Shown here piece by piece: positions 26,907-38,983 of a DNA stretch of 45,088 nt. The DNA is taken from positions 1 through 45,088 of the forward strand of contig JAMONT010000029.1 in NCBI GenBank assembly GCA_027066455.1, read 5' to 3'. The translations under genes were made by a program, and so were the position numbers. The stretch's first letter is position 1, and each line of letters opens with the position of its first letter. The stretch comes from Candidatus Altimarinota bacterium (lineage in GTDB: Bacteria > Patescibacteriota > Gracilibacteria > BD1-5 > UBA6164). The notes beneath the pieces are model-generated. The model did not search any database. It saw nothing but the letters and a program-made list of their open reading frames with translations, and was not told where the DNA came from.

Positions 26907-29306
26907 CTAAACAAAAAATGGTACAACTATATCTGAAAAATCTATTTCAAGCATATTAGAATTTTTTATTTCTTCCAAATCTTCTATTTTAATTTTTCAA
27001 ATATATAATTCTTTCAAACTTCATCAATCATCTAAATATTTTTTTACTTGTAAATATCAATTTGCATAAACCAAATCTTTTGCAAAAAATCAAGTATCAG
27101 AGAATTTTTTAAATCATCTTTTTATTCTAAAAATATAGTTAAAAACCCTTTCATAATCATCATTATAATATTCTAACATTTTTTGTGTTAATTTTTCAGT
27201 TGAATGAGAATTAGCATAATCTATAAAAAAATATCTTTCAAAAATAGAATAATATTTTTGGTCAACCTCTTTTAAAAATCTAGACTGATTATAAATTGCA
27301 ATTCATTCTTCTGTAGCTAAATAATTAGCTGTTCCTAATCAAAAAATTTTGTATTTTAATTTATTTCAATTTATTTTTCTCAAATGATGTCATTCTATTT
27401 CGTGAGCAATAATACTTCTTAATTCCCTTTTTCACACAACTGTTCCTGATCTCATCATCAAATTATTTCATTTCATAGCAAATCTTGAAGCTCAAATTCT
27501 TTCAATTAAAGAAATTTTTATATTATAAATATGATTAAATTTTTTTATAAAATTAATTATTTCCTGCTTTACAAGTAATTCTTCTTCTTGTTTTATTTCT
27601 CATTTATTTTTTATTAATTCCTTAGAATATTGTAAATTTTCTTCTATTATTTCTCAAAAAATTTTCTTTGAAAAAACAGTCATTTCCTTAGAATCTCAAT
27701 TTTTAAAAGCTTTTAAAAATTTTATTTTATTAAGAATTTCTTGCTTTTTATCTAAAAATATTTTATTTAAAGGAATATCAGAAATTTCTAAATTTTCAAT
27801 AATTTTTTCCAAATCATCTAATTTTATTTTTAATTCTTCATATCTAAAATTTGGATTATATTTTCACTTTTTTTCTATAAATTTTTGTTTTTCTTCCTCT
27901 AAATTAATTGGTTTTATATATCTCAAAAGTCATATTTTTTTATCTATTCTAACAAGAATTTTATCAATATTTACAAGTGATTCTTCATATTTTTTTATAA
28001 TAGCAACATTTTTTGATTTCAAAAAATTTACAGAATCTAAATCTATTGGAAGTTCATTTTTTTTGTATTTGAAAGGATCAAGCAAAAATCATCTCAAAGC
28101 ATCTTTTCATAAAATAATTTTATTATTTTCAATATTTTCTATTTTAAAATTTATTCTTCTAGTTTCTCAAAGAAGTTCTATTTCCAATTTTATTCTTTCT
28201 TTTTTTTCTATATTTTCTTTTGAAATTTTCAAAATATCTATTAAAAAATTTTTATCAATTATAGAATAAAAAATAGAAGGTTTTATATATGATAAATATT
28301 TATATTTTTTTTCTAAATAAAAAATACTTACATATTCTTTTATTCAAACAATTTTTTTTCAAGAAATATTTTCAATTTTTTCTTCTATATTTCCTCAAAA
28401 TAAATCTTTTCATAATCTAACTCATTTTTTCATAGAATCTACAAAAACTCAAGTTACTTTTTTTAATCTATTTTTCAAAGGAGCTAAATTGGCTAATTGA
28501 ACAGATAAACCAGGTCTAATATTCATTTCTAAAAGAAGTGGTCAATCAATTTTATCAAGAACAATATCACAACCAACAAATCAAATATTTGTAATTTCTT
28601 GAACTTTTACAGCTAATTCCAAAATTTTTTCCCAATCTGGAAGTTCTATTCATCTAACATCTCAAATTCCTGGAATTGTTTTCACATTTTTTCACATATG
28701 AGAAATATAAGTCAATTTTCCTGTTCAAATATCAACTCAAACTCAACAAGCTCAAGCATGCAAATTTGCTTTTCACTTTGATTTAGCTGTTGGAATTCTA
28801 AACATTGCCATTACCGGAACCATATTAAAAACAATAATTCTCAAATCTGGCAATCAAAATTTTCCCAAAAGTTCTATTTCAGAATTCAAAATAACTTTTT
28901 TTTCTATAATTATTTTATCTCTATTTCAAGAAAGTGAATAAAATCATTCTAAAATAAAAGCAAAATGAGCCGAAAGTTCTTTTTCACTCATAACAGTTCA
29001 ATCATTTAAAACAAAATTTCAACTTGCATCTTTTTCATCAATTATCAAAATTCATTTTCATCAAAATCAAGCATTTGGTTTTATTACAAAAGGTAATTTT
29101 AAATCATTAATTTTCAAATTTTCTAATTCTTTTTGATTAGACACAACTAAAAGAGTATCTACAACAGATACTCATTTTGATTTTAAAAAATCTTTTGTTG
29201 CAAGTTTTGAATCAGCCAATTTTTTAGCATAACTATCATTATATTCTTTAATATAATCCAAAGTTCTTGCATTTAAACCTAACAATCAGTAAGTTTTAAA
29301 AAACAT
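26907..29306 (-). CDS. ATP-grasp ligase fused to DUF1704-like HExxxH metallopeptidase
   Basis: The 799-residue protein has two parts. The N-terminal ~300 residues are an ATP-grasp, RimK-like amino acid ligase. K76 and the loop AGFGGKGI (79-86) are followed by LPDLRIIVF, MAMFRIPT, ANLHAGA, CDIVLD and the Mg site EMNIRPGLS. It resembles the alpha-L-glutamate ligase-like family. The C-terminal ~300 residues resemble DUF1704 (MATCAP-like) peptidases: zinc motif HEIEGH (H635, E636, H640) followed about 25 residues later by EEGIA (666-670), like the family's QEGLA. A charged middle region connects them. The protein would both add and remove amino acids, or couple two reactions. The upstream gene overlaps by 11 nt. 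Confidence 0.82.
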
Positions 29307-29856
29307 TTATTCAAGAAGTTGTTATATTATAAGTTTCATTTTTATCAGAATAATTAGCATTTATAATATTAATAAATGAAAAATCTCATAATTTTCAATT
29401 ATTTTTTATTTTTAATTCTAAAATTTTTCAAGATAATTTTTCTTGTTTTGATTTTGGAACTACAGATATAATAGTTATTCCAGAAGTTTTATTCAAAGTA
29501 AATACTTCAAAATTTTCATTCAAAGTTTTTATTTCTTCTATATTTATTTGTTTTTCATCAAAAGTGATAGTTAATCAAATATTTAAAGGATTAGAAATTT
29601 CTTTTTTTAAACTAATATTATAAATATTGTCTGAACTTTTTTCTATATAAAAATCTTTTTTTTCTATATTTTCTTTTTCCAAAATAGAACTATTTTCTAT
29701 TTTTACTTGATTAATATCAGCTTTTAAAAAAGAAGGATTTATAGAATTATTATTCATAAAGTCACTTATTCAAAAACCTACAACAAAAGCTAAAACACCA
29801 AATCAGATATTTTTAAACAATTCTTGTTTTTTATATTTTTTCATTACATCAGTCAT
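29296..29856 (-). CDS. membrane-anchored cohesin-like or Ig-like domain protein
   Basis: The 186-residue protein has one N-terminal helix (NIGFGVLAFVVGFGISDFM) that anchors it, followed by a single beta-rich extracellular domain. Stretches such as ISNPLNIGLTITFDEKQINI, VFTLNKTSGITIISVV and GKILELKIKNNGKLGDFSF have the alternating pattern of cohesin-like and bacterial Ig-like domains. It overlaps the ATP-grasp/peptidase gene by 11 nt, so translation is coupled. The two proteins may form a membrane-bound module. The exact domain family is not certain. Confidence 0.7.
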
Positions 29857-29941: not shown

Positions 29942-30892
29942 TTACCAATCTTTTTCTTGATTTTCATCTAACAAAGAATTATCATAAAGATTTTTTATTA
30001 TTTTATTTTCCTTATACTTTTTATTATAAAATTCTCTAAATTGTCCCTGACTTTTTTCTAATTGCTTAGCATAATTTTTTATAAATTCTTCTTGTTCTTG
30101 TTCTTTTTGCATTTTTTTATTTTCTCTTGCTTCTTTCTGTTTTTTTTCTATATTTTCTTTTTTTGCAGCCCCTTTCTCTCCATCGGGGAGAGAGGATTCA
30201 GGAGAGAGGGTTTTATTTTTTTCTTTGTCATTTTTCTGATTTTTTTCTTTTCCTTTATTATTATTTTTTTTCTGATTTTCATCTTTTTTTCAATCTTCTT
30301 TTTTACTATCTTCATCTTTTTTTTCTTTGTTATTTTTTTCTTTTTTTTCATTATTCTTTCATTTTTTTTCATTATTTTTTTTATTTTCTTCTTCTTCTTT
30401 TTCTTTTTCTTTTTTTATCTCTTCTTTTATTTTTTTAATTTTTTCTTTTATAAATAAAATATTTTTTTCTATTTTTAATTTATATTTTATATTTATTGCT
30501 TTTCTATAAAGTTCTAAAGACTTTTTTAAAAATTTTATTTTTTCTTCTTTTGTAATTAATCTTTTTTGAGCTAAAGGTTCTCATAAAAAATAATAATTTT
30601 CTGATAAAGTTTGATATAATTCAAATTTATTTTTTTCTTCTAAATTATCTTTTTTTTCATTTTCTTTTAAAACTTTTTCCAAAATTTCTTTAGATTTTTT
30701 TTCTTTAGAGTCAGTTATAGTTCTTGCTAAATTTATTTTATTTTCAATATTATCTATTTTTTCCAAAATTTCTATTTTTTTATTTTCATCTTTTTCCAAA
30801 TTAAGAGCATAAAAAGTATATCAAAAGTCCTTTAAACTGTAAAAGTTTAAAGCTAAGAATAAAAGAATTAATATTAGTATTTTTATTTTCAT
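29942..30892 (-). CDS. membrane-anchored coiled-coil/TPR-like protein with palindrome insert
   Basis: The 316-residue protein starts with a signal-anchor (MKIKILILILLFLALNFYSL). A helical region follows (FELYQTLSENYYFLG, FLKKSLELYRKAI), suggestive of one or two TPR-like hairpins, and then a very long Lys/Glu/Asn stretch. The 3' half of the gene is almost pure purine. A family A palindromic repeat sits in frame at 30164-30210 and encodes TLSPESSLPDGEKGAAK, unlike the surrounding composition. The C-terminus ends NSLLDENQEKDW. It is the first gene of a three-gene minus-strand group ending with the ATP-grasp fusion, 85 nt before the next gene. Function unknown. Confidence 0.75.
30164..30210 (-). 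repeat. GC-rich palindromic repeat, family A copy 6, inside a CDS
   Basis: On the minus strand this reads CCCTCTCTCCTGAATCCTCT, then CTCCCC GAT GGAGAG, AAAGGGGCTGCA. It is in sense in the coiled-coil gene and encodes LSPESSLPDGEKGAA in the same phase as the copy at 34954. Confidence 0.93.
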
Positions 30893-33788: not shown

Positions 33789-33834
33789 ATTTTTAATTAT
33801 AATGCTAAAAAATATCTTTTATAAAAATTTAATA

Positions 33835-35166
33835 ATGTATAAAATCTGAATAGATGAAGCTGGAAGATGACCTTGGGCTTGATGAGTTGTTGCTTGTGCA
33901 TTTTGTTTCAATCCTGAAAATATGCCAGATAAAAAATTCTTAAAACAAATCTGAGATTCAAAAAAAATTTCTGAAAAAAAAAGAAAAATATTATTTCAGC
34001 AATTAGTTGAAATGAGTTCCCCACCCCTAACCCCTCCCCCTTCAGGAGAGGGGAATTTGGAACCTCAAATCTTTTTCTGAGTTTGAGTTGTTGATAATTT
34101 TGTGATTGATGAAAAAAATATTAAACAAGCAAATAAAGAAGCAATGAGAAGAGCTTTGGTTGAGTTGTTGAGGAAAATAAGCCCCCTATCCCAGCCTTTC
34201 CCCCAAAGGGAGAAAGGAGCTAAAAAATATAAATGAAATATTTCTTGAGTTTTTATAGATTGAAATGATAATTATAATTTTGAAGAACTTGATAAAAAAC
34301 CTGTTTTTGTTATTAAGTGAGATGAAAAAATTCTTGAAATTGGAGCAGCTTCAATAATTGCAAAAGTTTTTAGAGATAAATTAATGAACACTTATTCTCT
34401 ACTTTATCCTAATTTTTGATTTGAAAATCATAAATGATATTGAACAAAAAAACATAGAGAAAAATTGCTTGAAAAAAAAGATATAACTTGAATTCACAGA
34501 ATTTCTTATAAACCTGTAAAAAAAATTCTTGAAAAAAAAGAAAAATTACTTTTACATATTTGTTGCTGACCAGATGCTTCAATTCCCATTATGGATTTGA
34601 AAGAAAAATATGATATTATTTGTTTTTGGTATGATCCAAATATTCAGCCAAAAAAAGAATATGAAAAAAGATTTAAAAATTTTGTAAAAGTTTGTAAAAT
34701 AGAAAAAGTTCCTTATATTAAATGAGAATATGATGTTGAAAATTTTTTAGCAGAAATAAAATGATTAGAAAAAACTCCTGAAAAGTGAGAAAAATGTACT
34801 AAATGTTATGATTTCAGACTTAAAAGAACAGCTCTTGAAGCTAATAAATTATGAATAAAATATTGGACAACAACTTTGAATATTTCTCCTCATAAAGATT
34901 TGGAAAAAATTTTTGAAATTGGGGAGAAGTATTCAAATAATCCACCTTTAAAATCCCTCTCTCCTGAATCCTCTCTCCCTTGCAGGGAGAAAGGGGCTAC
35001 AAAAATAAAAAAAGAAAAATTAGAATTTTTAAAAATAGCTTTTAGAAAAAATGGTGGTTTTGAAAGAAGTGTAGAATATACAAAAAAACATAAAATTTAT
35101 AGACAAAATTATTGTGGTTGTATTTATTCTGATACTTTTCCTGAAAAAAATAAATTTGAAAAATAA
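33835..35166 (+). CDS. RNase HII - epoxyqueuosine reductase QueH fusion
   Basis: The 443-residue protein is one frame with two enzymes. Residues 1-230 are RNase HII: GIDEAGRGP (D7, E8), VFIDGND (D142), KVFRDKL (D181) and HKGYGTKKH. It removes RNA from RNA-DNA hybrids. Residues 237-443 are QueH, which reduces epoxyqueuosine to queuosine in tRNA: LLHICCGPD (C243, C244), CTKCYDFRL (C321, C324) and YRQNYCGCIYS (C427, C429). Three GC-rich palindromes are inserted in frame: 34018-34055 and 34182-34222 in the RNase HII part, and 34954-35001 in QueH. All catalytic residues remain. A start at 33802 would add 11 residues; 33835 gives the usual MYKIGIDEAGRG N-terminus. Each enzyme is clear; the fusion is unusual. 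Confidence 0.92.
34018..34055 (+). repeat. GC-rich repeat, family B, inside RNase HII-QueH gene
   Basis: TCCCCACCCCTAACCCCTCC, then CCCTTCAGGAGAGGGG, encodes SPPLTPPPSGEG at about residues 62-73, between two RNase HII secondary elements. It is in sense, and the proline-rich peptide is foreign to the family. Confidence 0.8.
34182..34222 (+). repeat. GC-rich palindromic repeat, family A-like copy 7, in frame
   Basis: CCCCCTATCCCAGCCTTTCC, then CCCAAAGGGAGAAAGGAGCTA, encodes PLSQPFPQREKGA. The 3' half (GGGAGAAAGG-GCTA) matches family A and is read in the same phase as copies 6 and 8. Confidence 0.8.
34954..35001 (+). repeat. GC-rich palindromic repeat, family A copy 8, in frame
   Basis: TCCCTCTCTCCTGAATCC, stem CTCTCCC TTGC GGGAGA, then AAGGGGCTACA, encodes SLSPESSLPCREKGAT in the QueH part, between IGEKYSNNPPLK and KIKKEKLEFLK. 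It is in sense. Confidence 0.93.
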
Positions 35167-35215: not shown

Positions 35216-38200
35216 TTATTTTTCAAATAAAGGTGGAATATTATTTAAAAAATTATTATTATATTCTATAATTACAGATTGTCTTGCATATGGATCATCA
35301 GTGTTTGTTACAATTCTTGCAAATTTAGAATCTGTAGAACAAAAAGTTCAATCAGTAGTTCAATCAGTTGGATTATTATCAATTAAACTACAAGTTCAAT
35401 CTCAAATAACTTTTCAGGTATTCATTGGTAAATATAAATTATTTTCTTTAAAAACTAATACAAATCTTCTTAAAAAGTTTAAATCATATTTTTGTGCTTC
35501 TTCTTTTGTTGTACAATTAGAAACAAAATATGGACATTTATAAGGATCTTTTCTTGCTCAACCTATAGTATTTTCAGAAAATATATTTCAAAAAATATGA
35601 AGTTGATTTTTTAGTTCAGAAATATTATTTACATTTGTAAATTCTTTCATAGTAGTTCAAACTAATTTTCAAGATTTCAATGTTTTTGATAAATAATAAG
35701 TTCAAACTAAATTTGTAACTTCTGGGTCTATATAAACATTTCAACCAATTCAAGCTTCATCTTTTAATACAATTATTCACAAAATATCATTTTTGTTTTC
35801 ATAAAACATATTAGATTTAATATATAAATCTGCTCAAATTACAACAATTGTCTTTTTTCATTTTACTTCTAAATCATTAGTTCAATTTCAAAGAATAACT
35901 AAATTATCAGAATTTCATCATTTAAAATATAAAATATTATTATTTTGTAATTTTGTTCAGTCAGTATTATTAGAAAAATCAGTTAAATCAGTTATTTTAT
36001 TTCAATTTGTATTTACAATATTTCTTAAAGATTTATAAATATTTCTTTCAATAGATTTTTTAAAATCAAGTTTTGTAAGATTTCAAATATTATTCAAATC
36101 TTTTCATTTAGTATTTGTAATAATTGTATCAATATCATTAGCAATATATCAAACTACATTTAATCCAGATTGTTTTGTTCTTTGAATTTCTGTTTGTCAA
36201 ATTTTTTCTCAAGGGTAAATAACAGTTTTTCAATTTAAAATATACCTAACATAAGTAGAAAAACTAGTTTCTTGTTCATTATCTATTTGAACTCATTGTT
36301 TTTGAGTTAATAGAGTTAAAATTTCTTTTCAAGTTGTTAATAAATCTACTTTAGAATTTCAGTTAAAATTTAAACTTAAATTTCAAGTTGAAACAGGTTC
36401 TTCATCTATTGGATTATATGTAGAACTTCATTCTTGAAAATTTAAATCAAAATTATCACTAATATCTAAAAATTCGAAAAATATTTCTTCATCACTATCT
36501 CAAGCAATAATTCCATTTTGTTCAACTTTTATTTCTGAAGCTTGTGCAGCTCATTCTATTAATCAATTATTTTTTATTGAACCACTAAAAGTTACATTAT
36601 ATATTGGTTTGAATTCAAAATTTATTGTAGAACTCAAAACCGAACCAGAAGAAATAGAAGAACTTCAATCAATATTATCTTCTAAAATAGCTTCTATATC
36701 AGTTATTTCAAAAATTTCTGTATTTTTTATAAATTCTCTTCAATCTGTTATTCAAAATGTTGGAGTATAAACATTAAAATCAATTTTATATTTTCAGTCT
36801 CTATTTTCAGCATAATCATATTCTCAGTCAAAAGTTTTTTCTTTATTAGTTCATAAAATTATTTCTGCCATTGAATTACTATTAATTCTAGCTTCTACTG
36901 CTGAATCATTTTCATTATATTGATTTAAATGTAAATTATTATCATATTCTAATTCTATTTTTACTGTTCTAATATCTGTTGTTCAATCTTTTACAGGAGT
37001 AATTTTATTTCCAAATTCATCTTCTAAATTTATTTTTAAAGAATAATTAGTTCAGTTTGCAATTGCTGTTCAGTTTGCTAAATCTCCTATATCTGTAACA
37101 TTTGTATTAGTTATTCAAGCTAAAACATTATACTGAAAAGTTTTTAAATTTGTAGCACAATTAGCTGCTTCATCACAAACTTTTGTAACTTCATAATCAT
37201 AAACTCTATAATTTCAACTTTCTTTATCACTTTCTCAATCAACTTTTGAAATATTTTCTGAACTTGTCAAAGTTCAAGTAATTGAACCTCTTGAAAAATA
37301 ACTATTCTTATCATTAAATTTTTCAAACTCTGCATTTAATTCAACTATAGGAGAACCAGAATTAACATCTACAATTAATTCAAAATTTTCAGGATTTTTT
37401 GCAATTAAGAAAGAATTATTTGTTGGAATAGAAGTAATATCACTTGCTTGTGGTGGAATATTATCAAATTTAACTGTTCATAAATCATAATTAGCTATAG
37501 GATTTCAAACATTGTCTTTTAAATTTTCAATTTTATATTCAAAAGTTTTTCAATTATCATCATATGCAAAAACTTTATCATAGTAACAAATTTTATTTTG
37601 AGAAGTATTTGTAGTACAAGTGTAAGTAGTTATTGTATTAGTTTTTATTCAATCAATATATTCAACTAATTCAAAAGTATCTATTCAAGAACCATCAAGA
37701 TTATTATATTTATCAGTTAATCTAAAATTTAATGTAACACCTGAATTTGTCCAATTATTAGTTCAAGTTATTCATGTAATTCAAGATGAAGTTAAAGTTG
37801 GAGTTTGATTATCAAAATAAACAGTTTTAGTTTTTTTCATTCAAGGATTTTCATTTCAAACATTATCTGTAATCCATAAGTCATATTGAAAATCATATCA
37901 ATTATCTAGGTCAGAAAAATTTGCAAAAAAATCTCACCATATATTTTGTGTTGCTTGAGGAATATTTGTCAAACTATTATCAACTTGAGAACCATTTTTT
38001 CAGAATACATTATCATTAGTAGTATATTCTATTTCCCTATCACTATTTACCCAATTTTTTCAATTAATAACTTTTATCCAAGCACTTTCATTTTTAAATT
38101 CAATTGTTCAAGTTGGTTCCCTATCATCTAACTCTACTGGATATCAAGAAGATGAATTAGTTTTATCTCAGTTTTTACAAGTAATACTATAGCTTGTTTG

Positions 38201-38983
38201 ATTATCAGAATAACTAAGATCTGAATAATCTAAATTTACTTTTCAAGAAGGATTTATAGTATAAGTTCAACATGAACCATTATTTGGATTTAAACCTATA
38301 TTTCCTGGTATCCATTTTCAATATTCTCAACTATAGTTTAAGGAACAAGTTGTTGGTGTTTTATAATCACAAGATATTGTTGATGGACTTGGTTTAGAAG
38401 AAGCTGGACAGAAACTATCCTCTACTGTACCTCAACCATCTATTTTACAAAATACAGAAGAACTTAGATTTTCTCATCAACAAGCAGAAGAAGGGCAAGA
38501 AGGTGTAGTTCAAACCTGCCAACTATAAGTATAAGTTGGAGGTGGTGGTGTTGGATCTGGTAAATCTGGAGGTGGTGATGTTGGATCTGGATCTGGTGTT
38601 GATCATTGGGAAATTTTACATCTATATACAGTTTTATTATTTCTCAATTTTTTACTACCACTAACTGTACATTCCCGTATTTTAAAAACTTTAGAACCTT
38701 GTGTCTCTGTCCATACATCTTTTGTTATTTTAGCAGTAAAATCATTTTCACCTTTACATATTCATTTATCTCCTATATCACGAGCACATACATAATATTC
38801 ACAATAATTTAGTTCTTTATCAATTATATCTTCATAACATACTGCATCATCATGGTCTAAACAATCAGAAGACCAAGTAATTTTATTACCATCTGACCAA
38901 GTAGCTGTTTGACAAGTTGCATTTGCCACATTAAAAAATCCTATAAAAGTGAAACCTAGTATAATAAGTATTATTTTTTTCAT
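35216..38983 (-). CDS. large secreted surface protein with TSP1-like modules
   Basis: The 1255-residue protein has a Sec signal (IILIILGFTFIGFFNVANA) and no other membrane helix, so it is secreted or surface-bound. A Cys-rich N-terminal part is followed by a Pro-rich linker. Then come a TSP1-like module (YSWQVGTTPSCPSSACGG, TVEDSFCPASSKPSPSTISC) and further Cys-containing repeats. Many Ig/bacterial-adhesin-like beta domains follow (NGYDFQYDLGITDNVGNENP, FDNIPPQASDITSIPTNN). The C-terminal ~200 residues (NVYIDPEVTNLVGTYYLSK, YALFVFKENNLYLPM-like) resemble PilX/PilY-type pilus-associated proteins. A role in attachment to a host cell is plausible. Residue 103 or so is a CGG codon in a TSP1-like KI(R)ECT strand. 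Confidence 0.82.
38538..38597 (-). repeat. 30-bp tandem repeat encoding Pro-rich linker
   Basis: Two imperfect 30-bp units (GGAGGTGGTGRTGTTGGATC...) stand in line. On the minus strand they encode the DPTPPP/DPTSPPP linker between the Cys-rich domain and the TSP1-like module. Confidence 0.75.

Follow-up and report, generated by a model that had tools for sequence, protein, structure and literature searches.

A Patescibacterial ATP-grasp ligase fused to a degenerate retropepsin and a MATCAP metallopeptidase: a candidate Rlo-type writer and eraser in one protein

Can a single bacterial protein both attach an amino acid modification and remove it again? The question is raised by a gene in a 45,088-nucleotide (nt) stretch of DNA (here, the window: positions 1 to 45,088 of contig JAMONT010000029.1, assembly GCA_027066455.1) from a Candidatus Altimarinota bacterium, which belongs to a group of very small bacteria, most of them uncultured. 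An open reading frame (ORF) on its minus strand, 26907–29306, encodes 799 amino acids (aa) that join an ATP-grasp ligase to a zinc peptidase, and an earlier note made from the letters alone had suggested that the product holds writer and eraser of one modification, with the tyrosine cycle of tubulin as its model. Between these two parts lies a third domain (residues 316–420) that the earlier note overlooked, and it alters the comparison. We favor, with modest confidence, a Patescibacterial writer-eraser enzyme of the Rlo (RloB/RloC/RloA) type that handles (poly)glutamate-type chains and in which the MATCAP metallopeptidase took over trimming from a decayed aspartic eraser.

Domains of the 799-aa protein

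We read the window with genetic code 25, in which TGA stands for glycine. The ORF then contains 48 in-frame TGA codons, including the one for the glycine of the zinc motif HEIEGH; a reading with table 11, which we rejected, gives only fragments and no long ORF at the locus. Both ORFs of the earlier note, 26907–29306 (−) and 29296–29856 (−), exist as described, and their 11-nt overlap appears under code 25 only. The features of the locus, all on the minus strand, are as follows.

26907–29306, minus: 799-aa protein with RloC-type ATP-grasp, predicted degenerate retropepsin and MATCAP metallopeptidase (code 25; Pfam, NCBIfam, AlphaFold, Foldseek)
28449–29297, minus: ATP-grasp ligase domain, residues 4–286 (PF14397; nearest NCBIfam model TIGR02291; RimK fold)
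28047–28361, minus: middle domain, residues 316–420, predicted degenerate retropepsin of RimB/RloA type (hhalign, Foldseek)
28275–28283, minus: K342-P343-S344, where the catalytic Asp-Thr-Gly would sit (alignments)
26961–27962, minus: MATCAP/QEGLA metallopeptidase domain, residues 449–782 (PF08014)
27387–27404, minus: zinc motif HEIEGH, residues 635–640 (H635, E636 and H640 invariant in 106 of 106 orthologues)
27297–27311, minus: EEGIA, residues 666–670 (E667 and G668 invariant; E667 the putative third zinc ligand)
29296–29856, minus: 186-aa protein with a single hydrophobic helix at the N terminus and a region predicted as beta, probably outside the system

Pfam recognizes both outer domains above its cut-offs, PF14397 (ATP-grasp) at residues 15–285 (E 7.6e-57, 193.1 bits against 31.4) and PF08014 (MATCAP, formerly DUF1704) at residues 474–782 (E 4.1e-27, 95.5 bits against 27), which bears out the claimed fusion of an ATP-grasp ligase to an HExxxH peptidase. 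The nearest NCBIfam model of the ligase is TIGR02291 (residues 4–286, E 2.3e-76, 256.8 bits, below the curated cut-off of 314.2), and the QEGLA model TIGR02421 also matches below its curated cut-off (E 2.7e-34, 119 bits against 338.65). By sequence, the ligase thus groups with the RloC or "alpha-L-glutamate ligase-like" proteins, and a Pfam scan of the 799-aa protein found no match to PF03133 (TTL) up to E 0.1. A sequence search of the PDB retrieved human KIAA0895L/MATCAP1, with E 3e-11 for the single protein and 1.9e-28 for the family profile. The AlphaFold model of the whole protein (mean predicted local distance difference test score [pLDDT] 86.7; predicted template modeling score [pTM] 0.51) has human MATCAP (7z5g) and RimK as its best Foldseek matches, so the peptidase fold around H635–H640, whose absence would have spoken against the fusion, is present in the model.

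The architecture is not peculiar to one genome, as we found full-length orthologues throughout the window's family, order and class and further afield, in relatives recorded as Gracilibacteria and other Patescibacteria. In all 106 full-length fused orthologues, the ATP-grasp residues K76, E135, D247, E260, N262 and R264 and the MATCAP residues H635, E636, H640 and E667 are identical, so the catalytic residues that had been named as a test of the proposal hold without variation. The metallopeptidase is homologous to human MATCAP1/TMCP1 and TMCP2 (KIAA0895L and KIAA0895; PMC10499314; PDB 7z5g), with which it has the HExxxH...EEG arrangement in common, and the segments RxKRG and KDxVY occur in both the window's protein and human MATCAP1; by analogy with the role proposed for the EEG motif in TMCP1 (PMC10499314), E667 would be the third zinc ligand. 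Unlike the window's protein, the human proteins carry no ligase fusion, and their substrate is tubulin, a protein that one would not expect in these bacteria. Genomes of the window's group (loci L024, L037 and L076) also contain separate MATCAP-family paralogues that have no ligase domain.

The middle domain and its association with MATCAP

Residues 316–420 have no Pfam match, and a direct search found no significant sequence match in the PDB; the identity of the domain came to light only through relatives that keep an intact motif. In relatives without MATCAP nearby, the protein is about 430–510 aa long and consists of the ATP-grasp domain followed by a domain that bears DTGA, the signature of aspartic proteases, and the intact-motif domains of such unfused relatives match PF05618, the RimB/RloA family, in all 32 cases scanned. 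In hhalign, the window's clade aligns through its middle domain with these PF05618-positive forms (probability 99.1, E 1.1e-18, 111 columns), and a model of the middle domain alone (pLDDT 88.6) has Pseudomonas RloA2 and RloA (9g59 and 9g58) as its best Foldseek matches, a result that is not wholly independent of the profile-profile comparison since the alignment used for the model included intact relatives. Profile comparison and modeling thus identify the domain as a degenerate retropepsin of the RimB/RloA type. Where intact forms have DTG, the window's protein reads KPS (K342-P343-S344); it also has a shortened version of the segment that bears the conserved S-x-x-G...R in those forms. The window's genome (assembly 97.7% complete) has no PF05618 match, no separate RimB-type gene and no secreted, active RloA: its related domain is internal and degenerate.

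Loss of the motif follows the placement of MATCAP. Among 171 distinct proteins sorted in this way, DTGA/DSGA is present in all 43 without MATCAP nearby, in 5 of the 8 with MATCAP as a same-strand neighboring gene, in 2 of the 9 whose fetched locus holds MATCAP in some other position (D[TS]G being kept in all 9) and in none of the 111 that are fused to MATCAP. The ratio of middle-domain to ATP-grasp identity is 0.51 in fused and 0.78 in unfused proteins; relative to ATP-grasp, the middle domain diverged faster in the fused forms, and in MATCAP-fused lineages the active site has decayed while the fold persists. The ATP-grasp tree requires at least two origins of the fusion. In another, separate clade, where MATCAP is adjacent (L189, L190 and L200), the aspartate has become asparagine, and MATCAP is a same-strand neighbor in eight further loci that are dispersed over the tree. 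We do not use as evidence the Fisher test of motif loss against MATCAP (p 3e-31), which disregards relatedness. Taken together, the sequence comparisons are suggestive of a link between MATCAP fusion and loss of the retropepsin motif, with a direction that is without exception.

Writing, erasing and the rival explanations

The combination of domains recalls the rloABC system of Pseudomonas aeruginosa, which likewise comprises an RloC-type ATP-grasp ligase, an RloA-type retropepsin and an RloB-type 7TM_transglut protein (PMC12239564). There, RloA cleaves polyglutamate, and deletion of rloB or rloC rescues a triple mutant that lacks the RloA proteases (PMC12239564), as expected of a writer and an eraser. 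The third component also has its counterpart in Patescibacteria: the gene immediately upstream on the same strand is of one kind in 121 of 166 loci, and each of the five representatives tested has a match to PF14402, the 7TM_transglut family that corresponds to RloB's membrane half. Ligase and 7TM genes adjoin in most Patescibacterial relatives. Where RloB has its transglutaminase, the tested 7TM representatives have a PKD domain (two of the five) or no recognized domain. The window's own genome encodes a 539-aa 7TM_transglut protein (PF14402, E 3.9e-12) on a different contig (C73), outside the operon of the ligase and unlinked to it. The window's system departs from rloABC in that its retropepsin forms one protein with the ligase, has a degenerate catalytic site and apparently stays in the cytoplasm, and in its additional MATCAP domain. 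A second precedent is the active natural hybrid RimBK of Desulfotalea psychrophila, which unites a glutamate ligase and a polyglutamate-removing retropepsin in a single protein (PMC11957791); in RimBK the RimB part is N-terminal and active, whereas the window's retropepsin lies C-terminal to the ligase, is degenerate and is followed by the metallopeptidase. A MATCAP-family gene also adjoins an ATP-grasp-type ligase gene in rhizobia, where a QEGLA gene stands beside an N-formylglutamate amidohydrolase gene and a glutathione synthase gene, but these are separate genes, the ligase is of another family and no retropepsin gene is adjacent. Our literature search returned no paper that treats DUF1704 and ATP-grasp together; the amidoligase paper of Iyer et al. 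(2009), which lay outside that search, may note related neighborhoods. The system is a variant of the RimK-RimB/Rlo kind, new in its form.

In the account that we favor, the N-terminal ATP-grasp domain would attach amino acids to an acceptor at the expense of ATP, most likely as chains of L-glutamate, and its ancestral partner would have been a C-terminal aspartic peptidase domain of the RimB/RloA type that trimmed such chains. A MATCAP zinc carboxypeptidase, fused on in some lineages, would then have taken over the trimming, and the retropepsin would have lost its catalytic motif; MATCAP has thus probably replaced the aspartic eraser. Because RimB not only trims polyglutamate but also stimulates RimK (PMC11957791), the dead retropepsin may have been kept as an allosteric module, or else as a structural one. 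The 799-aa enzyme would be located in the cytoplasm, and an RloB-like 7TM_transglut membrane protein, encoded elsewhere in the window's genome, would be part of the system. What the sequences show directly is the set of domains, the conserved active sites, the decay of the middle domain and the neighboring genes; that the residue is glutamate, that MATCAP does the trimming and that the middle domain acts allosterically, we infer. Glutamate is likely because the ligase belongs to the RloC-type group, the ancestral partner to the polyglutamate-cleaving RimB/RloA family, and the human relatives TMCP1 and TMCP2 shorten the polyglutamate chains of tubulin (PMC10499314). The more specific proposal of an eraser swap within one protein, from aspartic polyglutamate peptidase to MATCAP zinc carboxypeptidase with the dead retropepsin retained as an activator of the ligase, we put forward tentatively, as falling somewhat short of probable.

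Several observations weigh against this account. D[TS]G is retained in 7 of the 111 fused forms, and an independent-pairs test on four well-supported pairs, of which one or two agree and none disagree, is not significant; with so few independent events, the link between MATCAP and motif loss is phylogenetically only suggestive. No RloC-type ligase has a known activity or substrate, so glutamate is only inferred, and the window's ligase scores below the curated cut-off of its nearest model. At its low pTM, the model does not fix how the domains are placed relative to one another. Finally, the 799-aa protein shows on inspection no obvious signal peptide or transmembrane region, whereas Pseudomonas RloA is secreted.

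Among the alternatives, the one that deserves most attention—unlikely in our view, yet well short of negligible—is that the product is a free peptide or small molecule, such as poly-alpha-glutamate or an envelope precursor, rather than a tail on a protein. RimK does make free poly-alpha-L-glutamate (PMC11957791), and an envelope role would suit both the upstream 7TM_transglut gene and an FtsX-like gene, which in the window's family immediately precedes the fused ligase at 18 loci (L009 and L073 among them), often with a gap of 2–22 bp, a placement that hints at a connection with the cell envelope. The matches of these upstream genes to FtsX models are weak. Further RimK-like ATP-grasp genes at many related loci also fit a free product; on the other side, no recognizable metabolite pathway adjoins the gene, either in the window or at the loci that we looked at, and the MATCAP relatives studied to date work on protein C-termini. 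It is improbable that ligase and peptidase serve different substrates, or that MATCAP merely processes a precursor, with the fusion a structural convenience: the fusion arose at least twice, MATCAP is a same-strand neighbor at the eight further loci scattered on the tree, and both active sites are invariant.

A bacterial tyrosination cycle as in tubulin, with C-terminal tyrosine added by the ligase and removed by MATCAP, draws on the removal of tubulin tyrosine by MATCAP1/TMCP1 (PMC10499314) and on the fold match to 7z5g; since the ligase groups with RloC/RimK-type models and not with TTL, and since the ancestral retropepsin partner comes from a polyglutamate-cleaving family, we regard it as very unlikely. 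The earlier idea of writer and eraser in one protein gains from the architecture, the conserved active sites and the RimB-RimK precedent, with glutamate a likelier residue than tyrosine. Its companion claim, that the enzyme forms a complex with the 186-aa beta-domain protein anchored in the membrane, we consider hardly credible. It rested on the 11-nt overlap, which occurs in this genome alone among the relatives examined; most family members have an orthologue of the 186-aa protein, among them some in which no ligase was detected, and where checked these orthologues lie away from the ligase, mostly adjoining a TatD-like gene. Next to the ligase the beta-domain gene did not recur in the relatives examined; the usual upstream partner is 7TM_transglut, or the FtsX-like gene in the window's family.

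The Rlo-type account bears on the function and substrate of Rlo systems, as the fusions join three protein families, each tied elsewhere to glutamate chains, in what would be one reaction cycle. They hint that the family of the tubulin carboxypeptidases MATCAP1 and TMCP2 also has a role apart from tubulin; if the eraser swap is true, MATCAP enzymes would have served bacterial glutamylation cycles independently of tubulin. The protein is compact and probably soluble, and both halves could be assayed on it.

Other features of the loci and the window

Loci with unfused ATP-grasp (for example L186), and also L112, often have RimK-like ATP-grasp genes at a distance of one to three genes downstream, as if several ligases worked together; they form a cluster of 81 proteins, of which one representative was scanned. 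In the window itself, a 1255-aa ORF at 35216–38983 (−) has no Pfam or NCBIfam match, and a fusion of RNase HII to QueH (epoxyqueuosine reductase) at 33802–35166 (+) is also seen in several genomes of the family. The window contains six copies of a palindromic, GC-rich repeat some 60 nt long, at 413, 979, 5383, 18821, 20753 and 34931; the last of these (34931–35004) sits within the RNase HII-QueH ORF, in a part where the matches of relatives break, and a related palindrome lies near 30176, within the ORF 29942–30892.
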